Under the pieces are notes generated by a model. The model was given only the letters and a program-made list of their open reading frames with translations. It was not told where the DNA came from and ran no database searches. Of a stretch of DNA of 64,000 bases, positions 1 through 8,033 are shown in pieces. The stretch is from contig NZ_AP018207.1 in the NCBI RefSeq assembly GCF_002367995.1, positions 868,001 to 932,000 on the forward strand. The letters run 5' to 3'. This DNA is from Calothrix brevissima NIES-22 (GTDB lineage Bacteria; Cyanobacteriota; Cyanobacteriia; Cyanobacteriales; Nostocaceae). Both the position numbers and the translations under genes were made by a program. Position 1 is the first letter of the stretch, and each line of letters begins with the position of its first letter.

Positions 1-1002
1 CAAATTGAACAAGAAGCGATCGCTTATGTGGAAACTGAATTTATCGCATCACTCCCAGACGATCGCGTATTATTAGTTGTTCAGCCAAAGTGGCATCATG
101 GTGTAATCGGAATTGTCGCTTCCCGTTTGGTAGAACGCTACGGTGTGCCTGTATTTATTGCTACCTATGAAGATGATACACACATTCGCGGTTCCGCCAG
201 AGGAATTCCCGAATTTAATGTATTTGAAGCCTTGCAAGCTTGTGACGATTTATTAGGTAAATATGGCGGACACAAAGCTGCCGGAGGATTTTCTCTATCT
301 GTAGAAAATTTGGCAAAAATGCGATCGCGTTTGATTGAATTTGCAAATCAATGCTTAGAACCCCAGCATCTCAAACCATTATTGAAAATTGACACCCAAG
401 TCAATTTTAGTGAAATCAATTACCAGCTTTACCAACAGCTGAATGCTTTGCATCCCTGCGGTATCGATAATCCCGATCCAGTCTTCTGGACGCCGAATGT
501 GCAAGTAGTCGAACAGCAAATAGTCGGGAAAGGACATATCAAACTCACACTTGCCCAAACTATCGACGGACAACAGTATAAAATTAAAGCGATCGCTTGG
601 CGGTGGCGCGACTATTACCCCCTACCCTCGCGAGTCGATATTGCTTATAAATTGCGAGAAAATAACTTTAATGGCAATACTAGCATCGAGATGGAACTTA
701 TAGGACTGCGACTAACAACCCAGTCTCACCTATTTATTAGTTCCTCACCCCATCACTTAAGAACCACTTTTGAGTATAAACAACGCCAGTACAATTGCGG
801 TATCTTTCACCAAGGTTCCTTAGTAGAACTGAGAATTAAAAATCCTGAAGGCAAAATTTTAGTGATGCAACCAGGACATACAATTGGTTTACTCGGCAAT
901 AGCCGTGAAGATGCCCAAGAAATTGATATCTGTCAACCACAGTATGACCACATCATTCAAGCTGCACTTCAGGCTTTATCCGTATTGCACAATCAATCCT
1001 GA
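1..1002 (+). CDS. recJ: RecJ single-stranded-DNA exonuclease, C-terminal part (5' end outside window)
   Basis: The reading frame is open from base 1, so the gene enters from the left and only the last 333 codons are present. RecJ is a 5'-3' single-stranded-DNA exonuclease acting in recombinational and mismatch repair. The visible part begins inside the DHHA1 domain: the glycine-rich GKYGGHKAAGGFSL motif (bases about 256-300) is the typical RecJ substrate-binding signature. An OB-fold-like segment follows (VQVVEQQIVGKGHIKLTL), then a further C-terminal domain of the longer cyanobacterial RecJ. The catalytic DHH domain lies outside the window. An internal GTG at 28 is not the true start, because the upstream codons (QIEQEAIAYV) continue the family sequence. 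The gene is convergent with psb30. Confidence 0.9.
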   Translation, partial: QIEQEAIAYVETEFIASLPDDRVLLVVQPKWHHGVIGIVASRLVERYGVPVFIATYEDDTHIRGSARGIPEFNVFEALQACDDLLGKYGGHKAAGGFSLSVENLAKMRSRLIEFANQCLEPQHLKPLLKIDTQVNFSEINYQLYQQLNALHPCGIDNPDPVFWTPNVQVVEQQIVGKGHIKLTLAQTIDGQQYKIKAIAWRWRDYYPLPSRVDIAYKLRENNFNGNTSIEMELIGLRLTTQSHLFISSSPHHLRTTFEYKQRQYNCGIFHQGSLVELRIKNPEGKILVMQPGHTIGLLGNSREDAQEIDICQPQYDHIIQAALQALSVLHNQS

Positions 1003-1015
1003 ATTTTCAGACATC

Positions 1016-1052
1016 GAAGATCAGAGCAGCTTAAGTTGCTGTTCTGATCTTC
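1016..1052. terminator. Hairpin between convergent recJ and psb30
   Basis: A near-perfect stem of about 15 bp (GAAGATCAGAGCAGC against GCTGTTCTGATCTTC with one G-T pair) around a short TTAAGTT loop. It sits 14 bp after the recJ stop and 15 bp after the psb30 stop on the other strand. No strong T-run follows on either side, so a bidirectional terminator is inferred from position and stem strength. Confidence 0.6.
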
Positions 1053-1067
1053 AGTAACGCCGTACTA

Positions 1068-1190
1068 TTACAGATCGCCGTTACGAAATGCTAGGACAAA
1101 GATTACAGCTGGCCCAGCAAGGACAATGAGACCAACAAAAAGTAGTTGAAAAATAACTTCCCAATTGATATTGGCTAGAGCCTCAAACAT
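1068..1190 (-). CDS. psb30: Photosystem II reaction centre protein Psb30 (Ycf12)
   Basis: A 40-codon gene, [20 protein letters not shown] then [20 protein letters not shown]. It is a single-membrane-span subunit at the periphery of photosystem II near cytochrome b559. The N-terminal NWEVIFQL segment, the central AGPAVIF part of the transmembrane helix and the basic-acidic RNGDL tail match the Psb30/Ycf12 family, and 40 aa is a normal length. A strong ribosome-binding site (GGGAGG, 5 bp before ATG) fixes the start. The gene is monocistronic and convergent with recJ, with a plausible promoter about 105 bp upstream. It is easily missed because of its size. Confidence 0.9.
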
Positions 1191-1293
1191 GTTATCCTCC
1201 CGATTGTCTTAAAAAATTCAATAACGTCAAATTGCAAAACCCGCAATCGATCATATCCGGCGAAGGAGCGTCAGATTTAATTTACTTAACAAA

Positions 1294-1321
1294 ATTATAG
1301 AAAAAAACACAAAAATGTAAG
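1294..1321 (-). promoter_or_regulatory. Putative sigma70-type promoter of psb30
   Basis: On the minus strand, a CTTACA -35-like box (1316-1321) lies 16 bp before a perfect TATAAT -10 box (1294-1299). This would give a leader of about 100 nt before the psb30 ATG. It is inferred from consensus match and position only. Confidence 0.5.
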
Positions 1322-1325
1322 ATGA

Positions 1326-1469
1326 GGGGCTAGGGGCTAGGGAGTAGAAGGGGACAAGGAGGACAAGGGAGACAAGGGGGACAAGGAAGACAAATGACTA
1401 TTGTACAGACAAGGGTTCATCGCGTCTCTGACCATTGACCATTGACCATTGACCATTGACTATTGACAA
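1326..1469. repeat. Degenerate short tandem repeats upstream of the ykgJ-like gene
   Basis: Imperfect GGGGCTA and GGGGACAAGG-type repeats (about 1326-1393) are followed by a heptanucleotide array of ACCATTG units (about 1430-1469) that runs to within 3 bp of the ykgJ-like start codon. Such heptamer arrays recur throughout this window. Confidence 0.85.
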
Positions 1470-1471
1470 TT

Positions 1472-1822
1472 ATGACAACTTGGCAATGTATTAAGCAATG
1501 TGGAGCCTGCTGTAATCTTGATCCAGCAGATCGTCCAGAAATAGAAGATTATCTGACACCCGCAGAACTCGAACTTTATATGAGCATGGTGGGTGAAGGC
1601 GGATGGTGCGTGAATTTTGACCATATCACGCGAGAATGTCGCATCTACGCCAATCGCCCGCGTTTTTGCCGCGTCGAAGCGGAGATATTTCAAGATATGT
1701 ATGGTATTGAGCCGGAAGAGTTAAACGATTTTGCCATTGACTGCTGTCGCCAACAAATAGAAGGGGTATATGGCGATCGCAGTTTGGAACTGATCCGCTT
1801 CAACAAAGCCGTCGGTTTTTAA
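1472..1822 (+). CDS. YkgJ-family cysteine-cluster protein (putative Zn/Fe chelating)
   Basis: A 116-aa protein with the CxxxCxxCC cluster at its start (C6, C10, C13, C14) and further cysteines at about 46, 56 and 66, the last within RPxxC. This is the pattern of the YkgJ/UPF0153 family, thought to bind Zn2+ or an Fe-S cluster; no specific reaction is established. ATG at 1472 is preferred: the longer frame uses a TTG at 1463 inside the heptamer repeat. No clear Shine-Dalgarno is visible because the repeat array occupies that position. The gene stands alone, with the Tn7-like element inserted 43 bp downstream of its stop. Confidence 0.8.
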   Translation: MTTWQCIKQCGACCNLDPADRPEIEDYLTPAELELYMSMVGEGGWCVNFDHITRECRIYANRPRFCRVEAEIFQDMYGIEPEELNDFAIDCCRQQIEGVYGDRSLELIRFNKAVGF

Positions 1823-1837
1823 TCAACTCAATTGTAC

Positions 1838-1857
1838 AGACGCGATGAATCGCGTCT
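1838..1857. repeat. Palindromic repeat with GACGCGAT / ATCGCGTC arms
   Basis: A 20-nt inverted repeat (AGACGCGAT, GA, ATCGCGTCT). Copies or half-copies also occur near 1413-1429, 7518-7536, 46108-46125 and 46912-46968, often next to GTACAATTG or GTCTGTACAA. It is a dispersed small repeat; the Tn7-like element lies just beside this copy. Confidence 0.75.
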
Positions 1858-1865
1858 CTTGCAAA
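1858..1865 (+). repeat. Left flanking direct repeat CTTGCAAA of the Tn7-like element
   Basis: CTTGCAAA directly abuts the left terminal TGTCAC. The same 8 bp directly abut the right terminus at 7505-7512. It looks like a target-site duplication, although Tn7-family elements normally produce 5 bp. Confidence 0.65.
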
Positions 1866-2023
1866 TGTCACTGTAATCATAAGATGAGCAACTGTGAAAG
1901 CATAAGTTGAGCAACAGATTGCTGGAAACAGTATTAATTTCGTCAGGAGTAACAAGCAAATCCACGAGTCTTGAAAGTATAAGTTGAGCAAAAATATGAT
2001 TGAGAAAGTATAAGTTGCGCAAA
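1866..2023 (+). repeat. Left end: terminal inverted repeat and TnsB-like binding sites
   Basis: Four related sites in the same orientation: the terminal one within 1866-1893 (CATAAGATGAGCAAC), then 1895-1914 (GAAAGCATAAGTTGAGCAAC), 1972-1992 (GAAAGTATAAGTTGAGCAA) and 2002-2023 (GAAAGTATAAGTTGCGCAA). Spaced repeats at the end next to tnsAB are the usual arrangement of a Tn7-like left end. TnsB binding is inferred, not shown. Confidence 0.8.
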
Positions 2024-2118
2024 CATTTTCAACACTTTGTTCATAAATATACAGCATTGTGCTGAGATCAACAGTAGGAGAGACATTGGCAAGCAACACT
2101 CTCTCCTCACCTAAAATT

Positions 2119-4887
2119 ATGCTTGGCAAGCAAGAATTTAACAACTGGTGCCGTCAACAAGACCTCAGTCAAGCAGCGCAGGCAATAATTGAGGAGATTC
2201 GCAGCGCCAACCCATCTCGTCGAGTAACCGGGGCAAGAAAAAACGTATGTGGCAGTTACCCCTCAAGAAAAATGGGAGTGACTATTCAATTTGAGAGCCA
2301 TCATAACGAATTAGCACGTATTTATGAACTAGAACATGACCCATCTGTACTCGAATATTACGACCAACCGCCAGCAATAGAATTAGTCTATCAAAGCAAA
2401 AACGGGCGAAAAAACAGACACCAGTACACACCCGATTTCTTTATAATTCGGACAGATTCAGCTTTTTGGGAGGAATGCAAAACCGAACTAGAACTCAACA
2501 AGCTGACCGAATTGAACCCAAATCGCTATTGCAAAAGCCCAGATGGCAAATGGCATTGTCCCCCAGGTGAAGAATACGCTCGTCTTCAAGGCTTAGACTT
2601 TCACGTATGGTCAGATGCTTTGATTAATTGGAAGTTTCAACAAAATCTAATTTGGCTATCAGATTATTTCGGATACTCATCAGAAATTCTAGACGAAACC
2701 GAGCCTAGCTTGATTAGAGCCACGGTAAAAAATTATCCAGGAATAACCCTGGCAGAACTGTTACAAATAGAAGAAATAAATCCCGATGTTCTTTATTGGT
2801 TAATAGCCACAGATAAACTTTACGTAGAACTGAATCAAGTCAAACTCTCACAACCAGAAACCGTACTCGTATTTATTAACCAAGATGTTGCTTTATCTTA
2901 TGAGCATCTTAACTCAATCGAGTCAAAAACCCAAACTAGTAATCAAATATTACTCCAAATAGCAGTAGGTACTAATATTTATTGGGATGGAGAGTCATGG
3001 GAAATAGTAAATACTGGGACGACTACTACTGGATTATTACGTGCAGATGGCAAACTTATAGAACTACCAAATGCAGCATTCACAGCATTGATTGATACAG
3101 GTAAAATTGTGGGAGTTGAGACAACACAAACCTCAAATATTAAAGCAGCAGCGACGGAAATTATTAAACATGCAACTTGTGAAGATATTATCGAAGCCAA
3201 CCGTCGCTACAATTTAATACAACCATACTTAGGAGATAATCCGAGAGCATATCCAAGCAGCACAGTCCGTCGTTGGCGTACTCAATACCAAAAAGCCTTA
3301 CTCATCTATGGTCATGGATACCTGGGATTACTGCCCAAGCATAAAAGTAAAGGCAATCGTACTCCCAAAATTGATTCTCAAACCCAAGAATTTATGCTCG
3401 AATTTATCATAGAGCATTATGAAACACCCAAACAACGCAGAAAATTACGGGTTTACGAGGCATTTGTCTTAGCGTGCCAAAACCATGAACCCCCATTGAA
3501 ACCACCATCGAGAATCACATTTTGCCAAGCGATTAAACAACGAAGCGGGCACAATCAAACCAGAAAACGTCTTGGTAATCGAGCCGCTATTGCCGAAGAA
3601 CCATTTTATTGGGAATTAGAGCAAACTACTCCACAACATGGTAGTCGTCCCTTCGAGATTGTCCATATTGACCATACTCAAATTGACATTGAATTAGTCA
3701 GTTCCCTCGAATCTCTAACTAATTGTTATATTGCTACAAACAACTCAATTCATCACAATTTAGGTCGTCCTTGGGCAACCTTTATGGTTGATGCATATAG
3801 TCGAAGAATTTTATCAGTTTACCTGACCTTCGATGAGCCAAGCTACCGTGATTGTATGATGGTAATTCGCATATGCGTCGCCAGATTTGGACGGTTTCCG
3901 CAAAATATTGTTGTCGATAACGGAAAAGAATTTCACAGTCACTATTTTGAACAATTATTAGCATCTTATACTTGCACGCTGAAGTATCGCCCGCCAGCAT
4001 ATGCTCGGTTTGGTTCAATTGTTGAAAGACTATTTGGCACCGCGAATACGCAGTTTATTCATGAGTTGCAAGGTAACACCCAAATCAAACGCCTTCACCG
4101 TCAAGTCACCAAATCTGTCAGTCCAGAAAGATTAGCAATTTGGACATTAGAACAACTGTACTCTGCCTTTTGCGAATGGGCATATTCAGTTTATGACCAA
4201 CGATTGCATCCGGCATTAGGTACTAGTCCCCATGATGCTTTTGTCACTGGACTAGCAACAGGTGGAAGTCGCTTACACCGAAGAGTGGCAAATGACGAAT
4301 TATTCCAGATTCTGACTCTACCAGCACCCGATCAACGAAAGCGTAAAGTTCAGCCAGGAAAGGGTGTCAAAATACACAATATTTATTACTGGGCAGATGT
4401 ATTCCGTGACCCAGAAATCGAGAAATCAATGCTGTGGGTTCGTTACGACCCTTGGAATGCAGGAATTGCCTATGCACTGGCACAAGGACAGTGGGTCAAA
4501 TGCATTTCTTCTTACTATCAATACTTCCAAGGACGTTCCGAAAAAGAAATCCGGCTCGTCAGTGCAGAACTTAATCAGCGCCAACGCAATTATGGGCGAA
4601 AGTTAACAATCAATGATAGAGAACTAGTAGAATTTTTAAACTCAAAACATGCTCAAGAAGGCGCTATTCTCAAACAACGCTTGCGCGATGCTGAACATGA
4701 AAAAGTTCACAAAATGATTCAAAATAATTTCCTCCCCGAACCAAGTTTACATGTAGGAGAATTTCCGGCAGCAGAAAATAATGATTCTCCAGAAAATGAC
4801 TCGACTAATGAAGATAAAAATTGTGAAAGAGTCAGCCATTTAAGTGCATATGCCACAGAAACCCTTGAATATTATGGAGAGTTCTAA
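2119..4887 (+). CDS. tnsAB: TnsA-TnsB fusion transposase of Tn7-like element
   Basis: One protein (922 aa from ATG 2119; a GTG at 2059 would add 20 aa) joins the two strand-processing activities. Numbered from the GTG, residues about 75-190 are a TnsA-type endonuclease: E84 in SHHNELARIYELEHDP, D126 in YTPDFF and the E139-x-K141 motif in WEECKTE. The rest is TnsB, a DDE recombinase: D538 (HIDHTQID), D620 (VVDNGKEF) and E656 (ARFGSIVERLFG), with D620 and E656 spaced as in D(35)E enzymes, then a C-terminal beta-barrel-like region. TnsA cuts the 5' ends and TnsB the 3' ends, giving cut-and-paste movement. Single-chain TnsAB is known from some cyanobacterial Tn7-like and type I-B CRISPR-associated elements. 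The stop overlaps the tnsC ATG by 1 bp. Confidence 0.9.
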   Translation: MLGKQEFNNWCRQQDLSQAAQAIIEEIRSANPSRRVTGARKNVCGSYPSRKMGVTIQFESHHNELARIYELEHDPSVLEYYDQPPAIELVYQSKNGRKNRHQYTPDFFIIRTDSAFWEECKTELELNKLTELNPNRYCKSPDGKWHCPPGEEYARLQGLDFHVWSDALINWKFQQNLIWLSDYFGYSSEILDETEPSLIRATVKNYPGITLAELLQIEEINPDVLYWLIATDKLYVELNQVKLSQPETVLVFINQDVALSYEHLNSIESKTQTSNQILLQIAVGTNIYWDGESWEIVNTGTTTTGLLRADGKLIELPNAAFTALIDTGKIVGVETTQTSNIKAAATEIIKHATCEDIIEANRRYNLIQPYLGDNPRAYPSSTVRRWRTQYQKALLIYGHGYLGLLPKHKSKGNRTPKIDSQTQEFMLEFIIEHYETPKQRRKLRVYEAFVLACQNHEPPLKPPSRITFCQAIKQRSGHNQTRKRLGNRAAIAEEPFYWELEQTTPQHGSRPFEIVHIDHTQIDIELVSSLESLTNCYIATNNSIHHNLGRPWATFMVDAYSRRILSVYLTFDEPSYRDCMMVIRICVARFGRFPQNIVVDNGKEFHSHYFEQLLASYTCTLKYRPPAYARFGSIVERLFGTANTQFIHELQGNTQIKRLHRQVTKSVSPERLAIWTLEQLYSAFCEWAYSVYDQRLHPALGTSPHDAFVTGLATGGSRLHRRVANDELFQILTLPAPDQRKRKVQPGKGVKIHNIYYWADVFRDPEIEKSMLWVRYDPWNAGIAYALAQGQWVKCISSYYQYFQGRSEKEIRLVSAELNQRQRNYGRKLTINDRELVEFLNSKHAQEGAILKQRLRDAEHEKVHKMIQNNFLPEPSLHVGEFPAAENNDSPENDSTNEDKNCERVSHLSAYATETLEYYGEF

Positions 4888-5993
4888 TGGCACATGATTA
4901 TAGCTTTCCTCAAGAATTACTAACTCTACCTATTGCTGACAAAATTGCTTATTTTCAGCAATATACAATGGCACATCCCAAATTATTAAGAGCAGCAGAG
5001 AAACTCAAAAATGCAATTGATGACCCAGCGTTCTTTTCTTTAATATTTTTATTTGGCCCAACAGGTGTAGGGAAAACCACATTATTACGTCGCATCACAC
5101 AAAAGTTACTAGGTTCTTTTCAAAAAGAAATGGAGCTAGATAAAGGTTTTATTCCTATCGCTAATATCGAAGTAGCTACCCCTGAATTTAGTAATTTTGA
5201 TTGGAAAGATTTTTATCTACGTGCTCTGGGCGTTCTCCAAGACCCATGCATTCAGTTACCTGGTTCTGGTCGAATCACTAATTTGAAGTTGAAAACATCA
5301 TTAGAAGCTGCACTTAAACATCGTCGTCTGAAAGTTTTTTGCATTGATGAAGCACAAAATCTCAGTAAAGTTGCCAGTGGACGCAAATTACGTGACCAGA
5401 CGGACTGTATTAAGTCCCTAGCAAACCTGACTGGGGTCAAATTTGTACTAGCAGGTACTTATGACTTGTTAATACTTCGTAACTTGAGTGCCCAGTTATG
5501 CAGACGCAGCTTGGATATTCATTTTGAACGGTACAAAGCTGAGAATGAAGAAGATTTAAAAGCTTTCAGAGGTGTTGTTCAAACTTTCCAACGTCATTTA
5601 CCTTTTGAGGAAGAGCCTGATTTACTTCAATACTGGGATTTTTGCTACGAACGCAGTTTCGGTTGTGTCGGTATTCTCAAAGATTGGTTATCTCAAGCAT
5701 TGGCAACGGCGTTACACCAGGGAGCTAAAACTCTCACTCTGTCGCACCTTATATCTTCTGCTTACTCTCATGAACAATGCATAATTATCGTCAATGAAAC
5801 AAGATTGGGAGAAAAGCAACTTGAGTTGACCTCGGATAGTTCCGCTTTGAGAATTGCTTTGGGTTTGGAATCTCATCAGGTGTCAGTTACACATAGCACA
5901 TCCCAGACAACCAAAACTCAATCTCGTCGTTCTGCTACTGGTAACACTAAACCTCAACGTCGTCCTGTTGGAGGTGGTGAAAATGTCGGTTGA
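4887..5993 (+). CDS. tnsC: TnsC-like AAA+ ATPase transposition regulator
   Basis: 368 aa. Walker A is GPTGVGKTT (about residues 57-65) and Walker B is VFCIDEAQNL (D154, E155), the AAA+ arrangement of TnsC/TniB proteins. TnsC polymerises on DNA, bridges the target selector and the transposase, and gives target immunity. The C-terminal ~60 residues are Ser/Thr/Gln-rich and likely flexible, perhaps the contact with TnsAB or TniQ. The start codon overlaps the tnsAB stop and the 3' end overlaps tniQ by 11 bp, so the three genes are translationally coupled. Confidence 0.9.
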   Translation: MAHDYSFPQELLTLPIADKIAYFQQYTMAHPKLLRAAEKLKNAIDDPAFFSLIFLFGPTGVGKTTLLRRITQKLLGSFQKEMELDKGFIPIANIEVATPEFSNFDWKDFYLRALGVLQDPCIQLPGSGRITNLKLKTSLEAALKHRRLKVFCIDEAQNLSKVASGRKLRDQTDCIKSLANLTGVKFVLAGTYDLLILRNLSAQLCRRSLDIHFERYKAENEEDLKAFRGVVQTFQRHLPFEEEPDLLQYWDFCYERSFGCVGILKDWLSQALATALHQGAKTLTLSHLISSAYSHEQCIIIVNETRLGEKQLELTSDSSALRIALGLESHQVSVTHSTSQTTKTQSRRSATGNTKPQRRPVGGGENVG

Positions 5994-6900
5994 AAGTTTG
6001 GCTAATTATGAGTCTTGGGACTTAACAATGAACCAACTTCCAAAACGCAGTCATCTTTACTCTCTTCAACCAATAGGTTTTGGTACACCCACAGTTGAAA
6101 GTTTTACTAGTTACTTACAGCGCTTGGCTGCTGCACATGGTGTCGAGGTTGCTAGTTTAATTCGCTATAAAATTACGCCGTTATTTATCCAAAGCAACCA
6201 ACCACCAGATTTGTTGAAAGCTGATGATGCTATCAAAATGCTCATCAATGCTTGGCATCGGGAGCCTGCACTTTTACAACAGCAGTCTGCTAAATTTTGG
6301 TTAGACCGAACGCAACATGTTTCAAAGGTAGTTGCCATCGTTGAAAAATTAACTGCTAGGCGGGATCTGAGTTTTCTGACTTTACTCCAATGGCATTCCT
6401 GGCGGCTTAACTTCAATCATATTTTCCATACTGAACAACGTTGGTGTCCTGGTTGTTATCAAGACTGGCGTGAAGCTGGAAAACCTATTTATCACCCTTT
6501 GTTGTGGACAATAGAAGCTGTTAGTGTTTGTCCAGTTCACCAACGTTACCTACAATTGCGCTGCTTGTACTGTGGTTGTTTTCAAAAATTTCTCAATCTA
6601 GATTGTCATTCTCTTGGTTATTGTTGTGCTTGTAATGCATGGCTGGGTCGGTTTTTCGATAATACTGCTAAATCTCACGGATCTCGGTTCGATTGGGACA
6701 AGTGGGCTGCTCAATCTGTCGGACAGATTTTCGCCGCTCTGCCAACACTTAGTGAGACTTCTTCTTATAACCATACTCCGCTAGCTAAATATTGGCGAAA
6801 ACCTACTCTCACTACGTTTTTAAGGTGGTGTTACAAGCTGGGAATTAACCCTGTTGAGGGTTTGGAAATTCTCTCGATCATGCCGAGTGTAATCAGTTGA
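5983..6900 (+). CDS. tniQ: TniQ/TnsD-family target-selection protein
   Basis: 305 aa. ATG 5983 is chosen because an excellent GGAGGTGG Shine-Dalgarno lies just upstream inside tnsC and because the family N-terminus (LYSLQPIGFGTPTVESFTSYLQRLA, here split by the start region) follows soon after. A zinc-binding region with the TniQ pattern lies in the middle: WCPGCYQDW, then VCPVHQ, CLYCGC and CCACNAWLG. TniQ/TnsD proteins recognise the target DNA, or a CRISPR effector, and recruit TnsC. The protein ends soon after a helical segment (RWCYKLGINPVEGLEIL), so it is shorter than Tn7 TnsD (about 500 aa) and larger than minimal type V-K TniQ. It may have lost its C-terminal DNA-reading part. It is the only target selector in the element. 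Confidence 0.85.
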   Translation: MSVESLANYESWDLTMNQLPKRSHLYSLQPIGFGTPTVESFTSYLQRLAAAHGVEVASLIRYKITPLFIQSNQPPDLLKADDAIKMLINAWHREPALLQQQSAKFWLDRTQHVSKVVAIVEKLTARRDLSFLTLLQWHSWRLNFNHIFHTEQRWCPGCYQDWREAGKPIYHPLLWTIEAVSVCPVHQRYLQLRCLYCGCFQKFLNLDCHSLGYCCACNAWLGRFFDNTAKSHGSRFDWDKWAAQSVGQIFAALPTLSETSSYNHTPLAKYWRKPTLTTFLRWCYKLGINPVEGLEILSIMPSVIS

Positions 6901-6938
6901 ACCCAGACCTGAGCTACTGGACTGTGATTTTACCCCCC

Positions 6939-7404
6939 GCGTGACCAAATTTTGAACCATAGCGTGACCAAAAGTTAACGGAATTTCAAGCTTAAGAGCC
7001 AATCCATCACCTCATGCTATGAATCAAATCATGTCCGTGTGTTTTAAATGTGAACCATAATGTCACCAAAAGTTTTATTTATGCATTTTGTAAAAAAACC
7101 AGATTGAGACACATTCTTGAGAGCTAAAATTTTCAACATTCGGTCAAGATATGGTTCAAAACGCCAATAATATGGTTCAAAAACAGTTTTAGTTACAAAT
7201 TAAGTGATCAAGCGATCGCATCTAGACTCAGTTTTAAAGGCTCTGTTCGCTGCATTGCATACAAATGAACCACAAAAGCCCTATTGCTTGCTGTACTTAA
7301 ATTTTGAGGTTTTACACAGACCATTTATAGCTTTGAACTATATGTTGTCCTATGGGGTTACGAAGTATTTCGTGACCGTTTGGTCAAGACATGATTCAAA
7401 TCAC
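6939..7404. repeat. Second, distinct repeat family (GAACCAT...TGACCAAA) near the right end
   Basis: At least five copies or half-copies of a motif like TTTGAACCATAnnnTGACCAAA: plus orientation at 6951-6976 (with a half-site TGACCAAA at 6942-6949) and 7051-7076; minus orientation at about 7137-7163, 7168-7185 (half) and 7371-7402. The motif is unrelated to the AAGCATAAG family at the element termini and is absent from the left end. It fills most of the 700-bp stretch after tniQ, which otherwise shows no gene. It may be sites for another recombinase, or the remnant of another transposon end. Confidence 0.7.
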
Positions 7405-7430
7405 ATGGACGGTGCTTCCCTTTCCTTTTT

Positions 7431-7504
7431 GTAAGCATAAGATGAACAACCCGCGCATGAAAGCATAAACTGAGCAAGTTGCTCATCTTATGCTTACAGT
7501 GACA
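7431..7504 (+). repeat. Right end: inner sites and terminal inverted repeat
   Basis: Two inner sites in plus orientation (7431-7450 GTAAGCATAAGATGAACAAC; 7458-7477 TGAAAGCATAAACTGAGCAA) are followed by the terminal 28-bp repeat in minus orientation (7477-7504, ending CAGTGACA). The orientation switch inside one end is unusual: the inner sites point the same way as those of the left end. Confidence 0.8.
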
Positions 7505-7512
7505 CTTGCAAA
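7505..7512 (+). repeat. Right flanking direct repeat CTTGCAAA of the Tn7-like element
   Basis: The same 8 bp as 1858-1865, directly after the terminal ACA. A further TCTCTTGCAA follows at about 7533-7542 behind a half-copy of the CGCGTC palindrome, so the target region was itself repetitive. Confidence 0.65.
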
Positions 7513-7604
7513 TATCCGATTCATCGCGTCTCTTGCAATTTATTACAACAATCTGAGAAAATGAGAAGAATATGAAAACAATCTAGTAATTAAAACTACT
7601 GCCC

Positions 7605-8033
7605 GTGAAACTTGATTCTGCACCACCAAGCCTTTCTGGTATCTCTCAGACTGAAAACCAGCTAGAACTACAAGATAGTACCGATATTAACGTCACAACA
7701 GCAACCCTTGAGTCGCTTCAGCCTGTAGTCGCCGATAGTCCCAAAAAGCCAGAATCAGTAGCGATGATTTTTGGTACTACCTTCATCACCATTTTTCTCG
7801 CAGAAATCGGTGATAAAACTCAGCTATCTACCTTATTGATGAGTGCAGAATCTCACGCGCCTTGGGTAGTGTTTATGGGTTCTGCTGCTGCATTAATCAC
7901 CACCAGCTTATTAGGAGTCCTCTTAGGAGGATGGATCGCCACTAAGCTAAGTCCTAAAACCGTAGAGAAATCAGCAGGTGTGATGTTATTGCTCATTTCC
8001 ATCATGCTGTTTTGGGATGTAGTTGTTGGTTAA
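7605..8033 (+). CDS. Half-size GDT1/TMEM165-family (UPF0016) cation transporter, first half
   Basis: 142 aa with a ~45-residue polar N-terminal tail, then three predicted transmembrane helices. The first carries the family signature EIGDKTQLSTLLMSA, the E-x-G-D-(K/R)-(T/S) motif that forms the cation path. Full-length GDT1 proteins have two such motifs; this protein and the next gene each carry one, so they probably form a heteromer. In cyanobacteria this family exports Mn2+ (and perhaps Ca2+) from the cytoplasm and supplies manganese for photosystem II; half-size pairs have been described in Anabaena as hemi manganese exchangers, from memory. Start is GTG 7605. The partner follows 57 bp downstream in the same direction. 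Confidence 0.85.
   Translation: MKLDSAPPSLSGISQTENQLELQDSTDINVTTATLESLQPVVADSPKKPESVAMIFGTTFITIFLAEIGDKTQLSTLLMSAESHAPWVVFMGSAAALITTSLLGVLLGGWIATKLSPKTVEKSAGVMLLLISIMLFWDVVVG

Follow-up and report, generated by a model that had tools for sequence, protein, structure and literature searches.

A cargo-free Tn7-like transposon of Calothrix brevissima and the plasmid block beside which its family mostly inserts

How does a Tn7-like transposon that carries little beyond its own transposition genes find a place to land? The question is raised by an element at positions 1866–7504 (+ strand) of a 64,000-nucleotide stretch of the Calothrix brevissima NIES-22 genome (the window; contig NZ_AP018207.1, positions 868,001 to 932,000). 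The element is a complete Tn7-like (Tn5469-like) transposon of 5,639 bp, including a nested mini-transposon, and encodes a TnsA-TnsB fusion (TnsAB), TnsC and a single TniQ. A DNA search with window positions 1861–7512 matched query bases 6–5644, which are 1866–7504, with 100% identity at two more places in the host; because the same 5,639 bp recurs from end to end, both boundaries are fixed at 1866 and 7504 rather than judged by eye. At exactly these coordinates the initial annotation had proposed a Tn7-like transposon that is free of cargo and in which TnsA and TnsB are fused. Judging from the insertion sites compiled below, its family almost certainly prefers a conserved DNA block on plasmids as its target, a partial answer to the choice of target that the initial annotation had left open.

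The search for TnsAB homologues covered 72,556 plasmid records. Each of the four best matches (>80% identity) has a right end 21–25 bp from the block, counted to AAAATAAG. On pC052_C a complete copy lies 220 bp from the block and a second right end is the adjacent one, the pNsp_b copy is interrupted by IS630, and in the Aulosira laxa copy one fused frame replaces tnsAB and tnsC. To avoid selecting by target, 84,980 genomes were searched with the right-end sequence pattern alone. The pattern matched 25 times, in 23 loci, and the flank is readable for 24 of these matches (22 loci). Sixteen of the 24 right ends, from 16 loci in 13 genomes, lie 22–25 bp from a block with 0–8 mismatches of 27, the weakest blocks being those of loci L088 (8 of 27) and L092 (6 of 27). 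Another six lie 85–398 bp from a block with 2–6 mismatches (the first ends of L092 and L096, and those of L089, L091, L095 and L106), and one is the site upstream of gdt1 in Nostoc sp. 106C (L090). As a control, the best match among 480 shuffled 60-bp flanks had 9 mismatches, and among 480 shuffled flanks of up to 600 bp the best had 8, reached once.

Empty sites and target duplications are available for the family as well. Host contig C2 contains TTGTGAGTTTTGCCACG with one TGAGT, whereas C3 contains TTGTGAGT, the element and TGAGTTTTGCCACG with two; the block beyond this site has 8 mismatches in 45. The pC052_D site, where the duplication is GTATA, is seen in its empty form in p057_K of C057 (L148) and in N. 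edaphicum pNe_5 (L111). The 5-bp target duplications of the family are TGAGT (host C3), TCTGT (L047), GTATA (L048) and ATAAT (L049); for GAACT and TCATA of Nostoc sp. 106C the two ends are on different contigs and were paired by inference. No such duplication surrounds the window copy, two other host copies or L093.

Mini-elements of 334 bp with the ends of this family, likely non-autonomous derivatives, are located 24 bp from the block in L098 and L104 and 240 bp from it in L092, and those of L092 and L104 are surrounded by a 5-bp duplication. In L049 (5538–21085) and L047 (7808–13153) a single block has more than one element or end beside it, stacked together, and target immunity between elements therefore appears weak.

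The block spans ~52 bp, from −16 to +36, with the consensus AAnACAAAATAAGnnACCCTTATCTTTTATCCGAyATAAACTACGATTAAnA over 34 distinct sites. Conservation falls off at both edges save for single positions such as +41, +44 and +59; the sites, which are related, were picked by a pattern over about −11 to +15, so that only the parts outside this range are independent evidence. The block occurs at 37 places in 36 records of large Nostocales plasmids (Nostoc, Aulosira, Tolypothrix, Trichormus, Anabaena and Calothrix), and in 35 of the 36 no annotated feature lies under it. A tyrosine recombinase with a Phage_integrase domain, akin to that of pC052_D, was found in 43 plasmid records at E ≤ 1e-60. Twenty-nine records contain both, on opposite strands in every case. 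The block lies upstream of the divergently transcribed recombinase gene, and the right ends of the window family are on the recombinase gene side. The distance between the two is within 2.15 kb in 17 of the 29 records and 4.6–6.1 kb in four, and the annotated start of the p057_K recombinase gene is 63 bp from the block. Fourteen records with the recombinase have no block match, and in 13 of these the recombinase is at most 65% identical; the plasmid records are related, hence none of these counts are independent. On both C2 and C3 the host encodes such a recombinase, which shares 82% identity with the pC052_D enzyme. In L148 (1404–2578), L113 (2761–3908) and L145 (3809–4941) the recombinase gene is followed by a pair of genes that are alike in size and order, and the pair of L148 has no Pfam match.

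The same block is used by other elements. The first element of L049 is a sister element whose TnsAB is 58% identical; it is followed by GACAACTTATGGCTAAAGTCACA, which is taken as its right end. Exact copies of this end in L091, L116 and L118, and one that has 3 mismatches in L095, stand 24–27 bp from the block; in L049 the distance is 23 bp when a later insertion is left out. Elements of Tolypothrix PCC 7712, Nostoc HK-01 and UHCC 0926 (TnsAB 907–910 amino acids (aa), TniQ 272–279 aa) lie on the opposite side of the block with tniQ closest to it, and between them and the block are end-like TGTGACT... sequences, some 20–40 bp from the block, which are candidate ends. The proteins of the Tolypothrix PCC 7712 element (L145) comprise 909, 375 and 272 aa, the sizes of the Tn5469 proteins, and on that basis we take it to be Tn5469. 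It is not a close relative of the window element: TnsAB is ~44% and TniQ ~33% identical, it belongs to a separate clade and it occupies the other side of the block. A comparison of phylogenies, which the initial annotation had proposed, assigns the window family to one clade of the TnsAB tree and the Tn5469-sized elements to another, each of them well supported; both clades are also fully supported in the TniQ tree, whose deep forks are weak. The TniQs of the two groups, ~34% identical, serve the same block from opposite sides. Among 20 other TnsAB loci, TniQ has 437–524 aa in 11 and 339–384 aa in three and was not detected in six. None of these 20 has the block at up to 6 mismatches, with L154 and L157 stopping near or before the end of tniQ and the right ends unmapped.

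Within the host, the window, C1:8037265–8042903 and C2:74624–80262 are letter-for-letter equal over 5,639 bp in a script comparison. Contig C3 carries a fourth copy, of 5,943 bp; one base inside tniQ differs, as does the sequence after tniQ. None of these other copies had been noticed before. The terminal bases of C3 complete, together with the left element flank, a perfect TGAGT duplication, and C3 is for this reason apparently a circular plasmid. The three identical copies suggest that the element has been mobile recently.

The window copy has, in place of a 5-bp duplication, an 8-bp direct repeat, CTTGCAAA, at 1858–1865 on the left and 7505–7512 on the right (neither with an assigned strand), within repeat-like sequence. 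Palindromic repeat-like sequences of the AGACGCGATGAATCGCGTCTCTTGCAA type lie on both sides of it (1829–1865 and 7505–7538). Its left neighbour is a CxxCxxCC (YkgJ-like) gene (1463–1822, +; PF03692) and its right neighbour a GDT1-family cation antiporter gene (7605–8033, +; PF01169), upstream of which a sequence conserved in relatives (TTGCAATTTATTACAAC..., 7533–7590, +) lies 28 bp from the element right end. The search for an empty site and for other insertions, suggested at the outset, was rewarded in that the window flanks are contiguous in all six relatives examined (G359, G392, G388, G390, G389 and G381) and the target block of the family was found; the gdt1 site of the window has no detectable likeness to that block. 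A similarity between the two was considered and rejected, as the best local score was matched by 73–77 of 500 shuffles on one strand and 297–338 of 500 on the other. In Nostoc sp. 106C (G391) an element occupies the same gap upstream of gdt1, with the target duplication GAACT, and its right end is 27 bp from TTGCAATTTATTACAA, against 28 bp in the window copy. That element, complete on another contig, is 95% identical to the window element while the flanking genes are 84–89% identical, and independent insertions at gdt1 are therefore likelier than inheritance; gene conversion is another possible source of the shared element.

An empty form of the flanking repeat was sought elsewhere in the host, and only the window site itself matched, with 3 mismatches. 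Recombination between host copies was considered as the cause of the missing duplications, GCAAA being common to the left flank of the window copy and the right flank of the C2 copy, yet it was dropped because in relatives the two flanks of the window copy adjoin. For the left flanks of the copies on C2 and at C1:8.04 Mb, the sequence that continues them in relatives was not found in the host beyond the shared flank and short weak matches. The C1:8.04 Mb copy starts 88 bp downstream of a tRNA-Lys (TTT) gene (L010, 10904–10993).

From the roles known in the family, TnsAB would excise and join the element ends, TnsC would couple the element to the target and the short TniQ would mark the target, and the combined activities of TnsA and TnsB would give cut-and-paste transposition. 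TniQ would most likely be recruited by a protein bound to the block instead of reading the block itself, as in Tn5053, which uses serine resolvases on res sites, and the bound protein would most simply be the tyrosine recombinase of the plasmid. Recruitment by a bound protein fits better because two dissimilar short TniQs use one block from either side, and we regard the case for the recombinase as the recruiter as evenly balanced. The broader proposal, that the recombinase acts in trans as a TniQ selector and that the site upstream of it attracts, from opposite sides, at least two TnsAB lineages whose short TniQs are dissimilar, is put forward tentatively. Short TniQs that lack a long extension have been suggested, in the passages of PMC10293859 consulted, as a hallmark of elements that use a further target selector. 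The chromosomal spot upstream of gdt1 would be a secondary target.

Several observations weigh against a plasmid target marked by the recombinase. The block is 16–75 kb from the recombinase gene in 8 of the 29 plasmids, 7 of the 36 block records have no recombinase match at E ≤ 1e-60, including pC052_C with its element at the block, and Nodularia CP020115 encodes a recombinase that is 85% identical yet has no block match. The right end of L099 (1 of 24) and a right-end remnant in G388 (L084) are without a block. In the host, the window copy is chromosomal and its site has no detectable similarity to the plasmid block; the copies on C2 and at C1:8.04 Mb lack a target duplication, neither is near a block, and in the relatives examined neither pair of flanks was found side by side. 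Of the four host copies only that on C3 is near a block, at 85 bp and beyond an apparent relic end of another element.

The main rival holds that TniQ, with TnsC, reads the plasmid block directly as DNA in the manner of TnsD, the recombinase being a mere neighbour. The spacing of 22–25 bp in 16 of 24 right ends is tight and comparable to the 30–33 nt reported for TnsD-directed homing of CyCAST (passages of PMC10293859), an element sits at the block on pC052_C where no recombinase was detected, and TniQ matches TnsD of PDB 8v32 significantly. However, TniQ has nothing that corresponds to most of the TnsD C-terminal part, and two TniQs only ~34% identical use the same block from opposite sides; on balance we consider direct reading rather unlikely. 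It is more doubtful still that TniQ is recruited by some other DNA-binding protein occupying the block, be it a partition, transfer or regulatory protein of the plasmid or host. Such a protein would suit the plasmids that keep the block although their recombinase gene went undetected or lies tens of kb from it, but it is the recombinase gene, the sole gene compared in this way, that is repeatedly found beside the block, and in opposite orientation in 29 of 29 records.

Recruitment by the recombinase must also be set against essentially untargeted transposition, in which the plasmid site is enriched because it is harmless and spread by plasmids. Two host copies lie elsewhere without the motif, and Tn5469 was discovered through gene inactivation (passages of PMC11406308). 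Nevertheless, 16 loci from 13 genomes have the right end turned towards the block at distances within a 4-bp spread, for which survival alone can hardly be the cause, and we find this explanation very improbable. Least credible, to the point of being nearly dismissed, is guidance of TniQ in trans by a host CRISPR-Cas system (Cascade). The closest PDB matches of TnsAB and TnsC belong to the type I-B2 CRISPR-associated transposon (CAST) PmcCAST, whose TniQ binds Cascade (passages of PMC11406308); no array or cas gene was seen in the element, the scans being of the element and not of host arrays, and host spacers would not be expected to converge on a single DNA block in many hosts.

The terminal inverted repeats of the window element, TGTCACTGTAATCATAAGATGAGCAAC on the left and inverted TGTCACTGTAAGCATAAGATGAGCAAC on the right, are alike in 26 of 27 bases and bear out the inverted TGT...ACA ends described in the initial annotation. 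The left end (1866–2022, +) comprises the 27-bp terminal inverted repeat and TnsB-site-like repeats (the terminal one and those at ~1895, 1972 and 2003), and the right end (7430–7504, +) comprises such repeats at 7430–7450, 7458–7477 and, inverted, 7478–7498 together with its terminal inverted repeat. By their sequence, the internal repeats at both ends probably serve as TnsB sites. Ends of this kind are typical of Tn7-like elements, and the genes of the window element agree with the definition of these as TnsB plus TnsC plus TnsA and/or TniQ (passages of PMC11406308). The tnsAB-tnsC-tniQ plan recurs in relatives on pC052_D of Nostoc sp. C052 and in Nostoc sp. 106C, where ~110–120 bp separate tniQ from the right end.

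The tnsAB gene (2119–4887, +) encodes a TnsA nuclease fused to a TnsB DDE transposase, 922 aa from an ATG. This start was taken from the annotated start of the 91% identical homologue on pC052_D; from the GTG at 2059 the open frame would encode 942 aa. The gene is a single open frame with Pfam matches to TnsA-N, rve and Mu-transpos_C. It is followed by tnsC (4887–5993, +), encoding a 368-aa AAA+ ATPase (Pfam AAA_22 and TniB), and by tniQ (5983–6900, +), whose 305-aa product has a TniQ domain (PF06527) and zinc-finger cysteines and no long C-terminal extension. Residues D538, D620 and E656 of TnsB and E79, D126 and K141 of TnsA are present, as are the Walker motifs of TnsC (A starting at residue 57, B at residue 150) and four CxxC-type motifs of TniQ. 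These are presumably the catalytic or binding residues, an assignment aided by alignment to PDB 9bw1, and the earlier view that the motifs of TnsA, TnsB and TnsC look intact agrees with their presence. The two findings that might have overturned that annotation did not materialize, since the repeats enclose no larger element with cargo (the identical copies end at the same bases) and tnsAB, as one open frame with its domains and motif residues, is not damaged. The significant match of TniQ to TnsD of 8v32 ends at TnsD residue 244 of 462 (TniQ residue 256 of 305) and a further short match, to TnsD residue 314, is not significant; because the significant match stops at residue 244, most of the TnsD C-terminal part is considered to lack a counterpart. 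An AlphaFold model of TniQ, built from six aligned close sequences, had a mean predicted local distance difference test score (pLDDT) of 34.4 and was not used.

Between the element ends, tnsAB, tnsC and one short tniQ are the sole genes, as in the cargo-free Tn5469-like elements. Neither Cascade genes nor a CRISPR array, as in type I-B2 or I-D CASTs, were found inside the element by the open reading frame list, Pfam, Rfam and repeat scans, in line with the earlier statement that it has no CRISPR or Cas gene. None of the 20 direct-repeat families listed, out of 55 for the window, is a CRISPR-like array. The tRNA search of the window found none, and the Rfam scan of the window gave no family at its cut-off; one sub-threshold match (E 0.05) is the right-end hairpin.

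The description of the element as only a transposition core holds for these genes but had overlooked a gene-free mini-transposon of 483 bp nested at 6923–7405. It has the ends TGTGATTT...AAATCACA, which are Tn7-like, and internal repeats, and no gene was found in it; its target duplication is TGGAC, at 6918–6922 on the left and 7406–7410 on the right (all three features unstranded). A solitary copy is present at C1:7084458 of the host and a 94% alike copy in the relative G229. The parent of the mini-transposon was looked for and not identified. Without the mini-transposon and one TGGAC duplication the element measures 5,151 bp, the length of the pC052_D copy. All three identical host copies carry the mini-transposon, and they therefore probably descend from one progenitor. 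The C3 copy lacks it and has in that position a 789-bp stretch (L011, 100–888) identical to C3:156796–157584, with an LprI-like open reading frame; this stretch is plausibly filler DNA from the same plasmid, captured at the excision break.

The nearest structural parallels of the window element are in the type I-B2 CAST PmcCAST (PDB 9bw1, 8v32 and 8fcu), which likewise has a TnsA-TnsB fusion and TnsC and provides the best PDB matches (TnsAB E 3.2e-274, TnsC E 2.9e-96). Unlike PmcCAST, the window element shows no Cascade, array or second TniQ/TnsD. Tn5053-type elements have no TnsA, transpose replicatively and carry their own resolvase, as review passages confirm in part; here TnsA is fused and intact and no resolvase is encoded among the open reading frames of the element. 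In the Tn5053/Tn402 family, nonetheless, a single TniQ and a plasmid recombination locus as target are combined as in the window family, and Tn5053 is called a hunter of resolvase sites (passages of PMC11406308). Insertion at a plasmid recombinase locus is seen for the family of the window element though not for the window copy, and the neighbouring enzyme, the candidate partner, is a tyrosine recombinase. Tn6022 with its TnsF similarly ties a short TniQ to a tyrosine-recombinase-related protein (passages of PMC10293859), but TnsF is transposon-encoded and lacks the catalytic chamber, whereas the recombinase considered here is plasmid-borne and keeps its Phage_integrase domain. Tn5469 of Fremyella diplosiphon resembles the window element in having no cargo and a single TniQ, and the review passages list it as appearing to have only untargeted transposition (PMC11406308). 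The same passages cite, from a 2022 survey, other non-CRISPR targeting systems in cyanobacterial TnsAB elements. No report of the plasmid block as a target was found in the parts of the literature searched, which did not cover this survey; because the survey may already describe the site, priority is unproven. The element is a new member of the Tn5469-like group, and the plasmid site, perhaps protein-marked, looks to be the new part.

How Tn7-like elements without TnsE or CRISPR get to plasmids is an open point in the passages of Benler et al. consulted. If the proposal is true, minimal Tn7-like elements ride plasmids without CRISPR, TnsD or TnsE, and the TnsF of Tn6022 could represent this partnership of TniQ and recombinase in domesticated form. 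With a ~52-bp block, insertion within a narrow range of distances, empty sites and a gene that may encode the partner, the question is directly testable. A system of three genes whose landing site is defined and marked by a protein would, if confirmed, be a compact alternative to RNA-guided integration. The plasmid block suggests how a stripped-down Tn7-like element finds a safe landing place.

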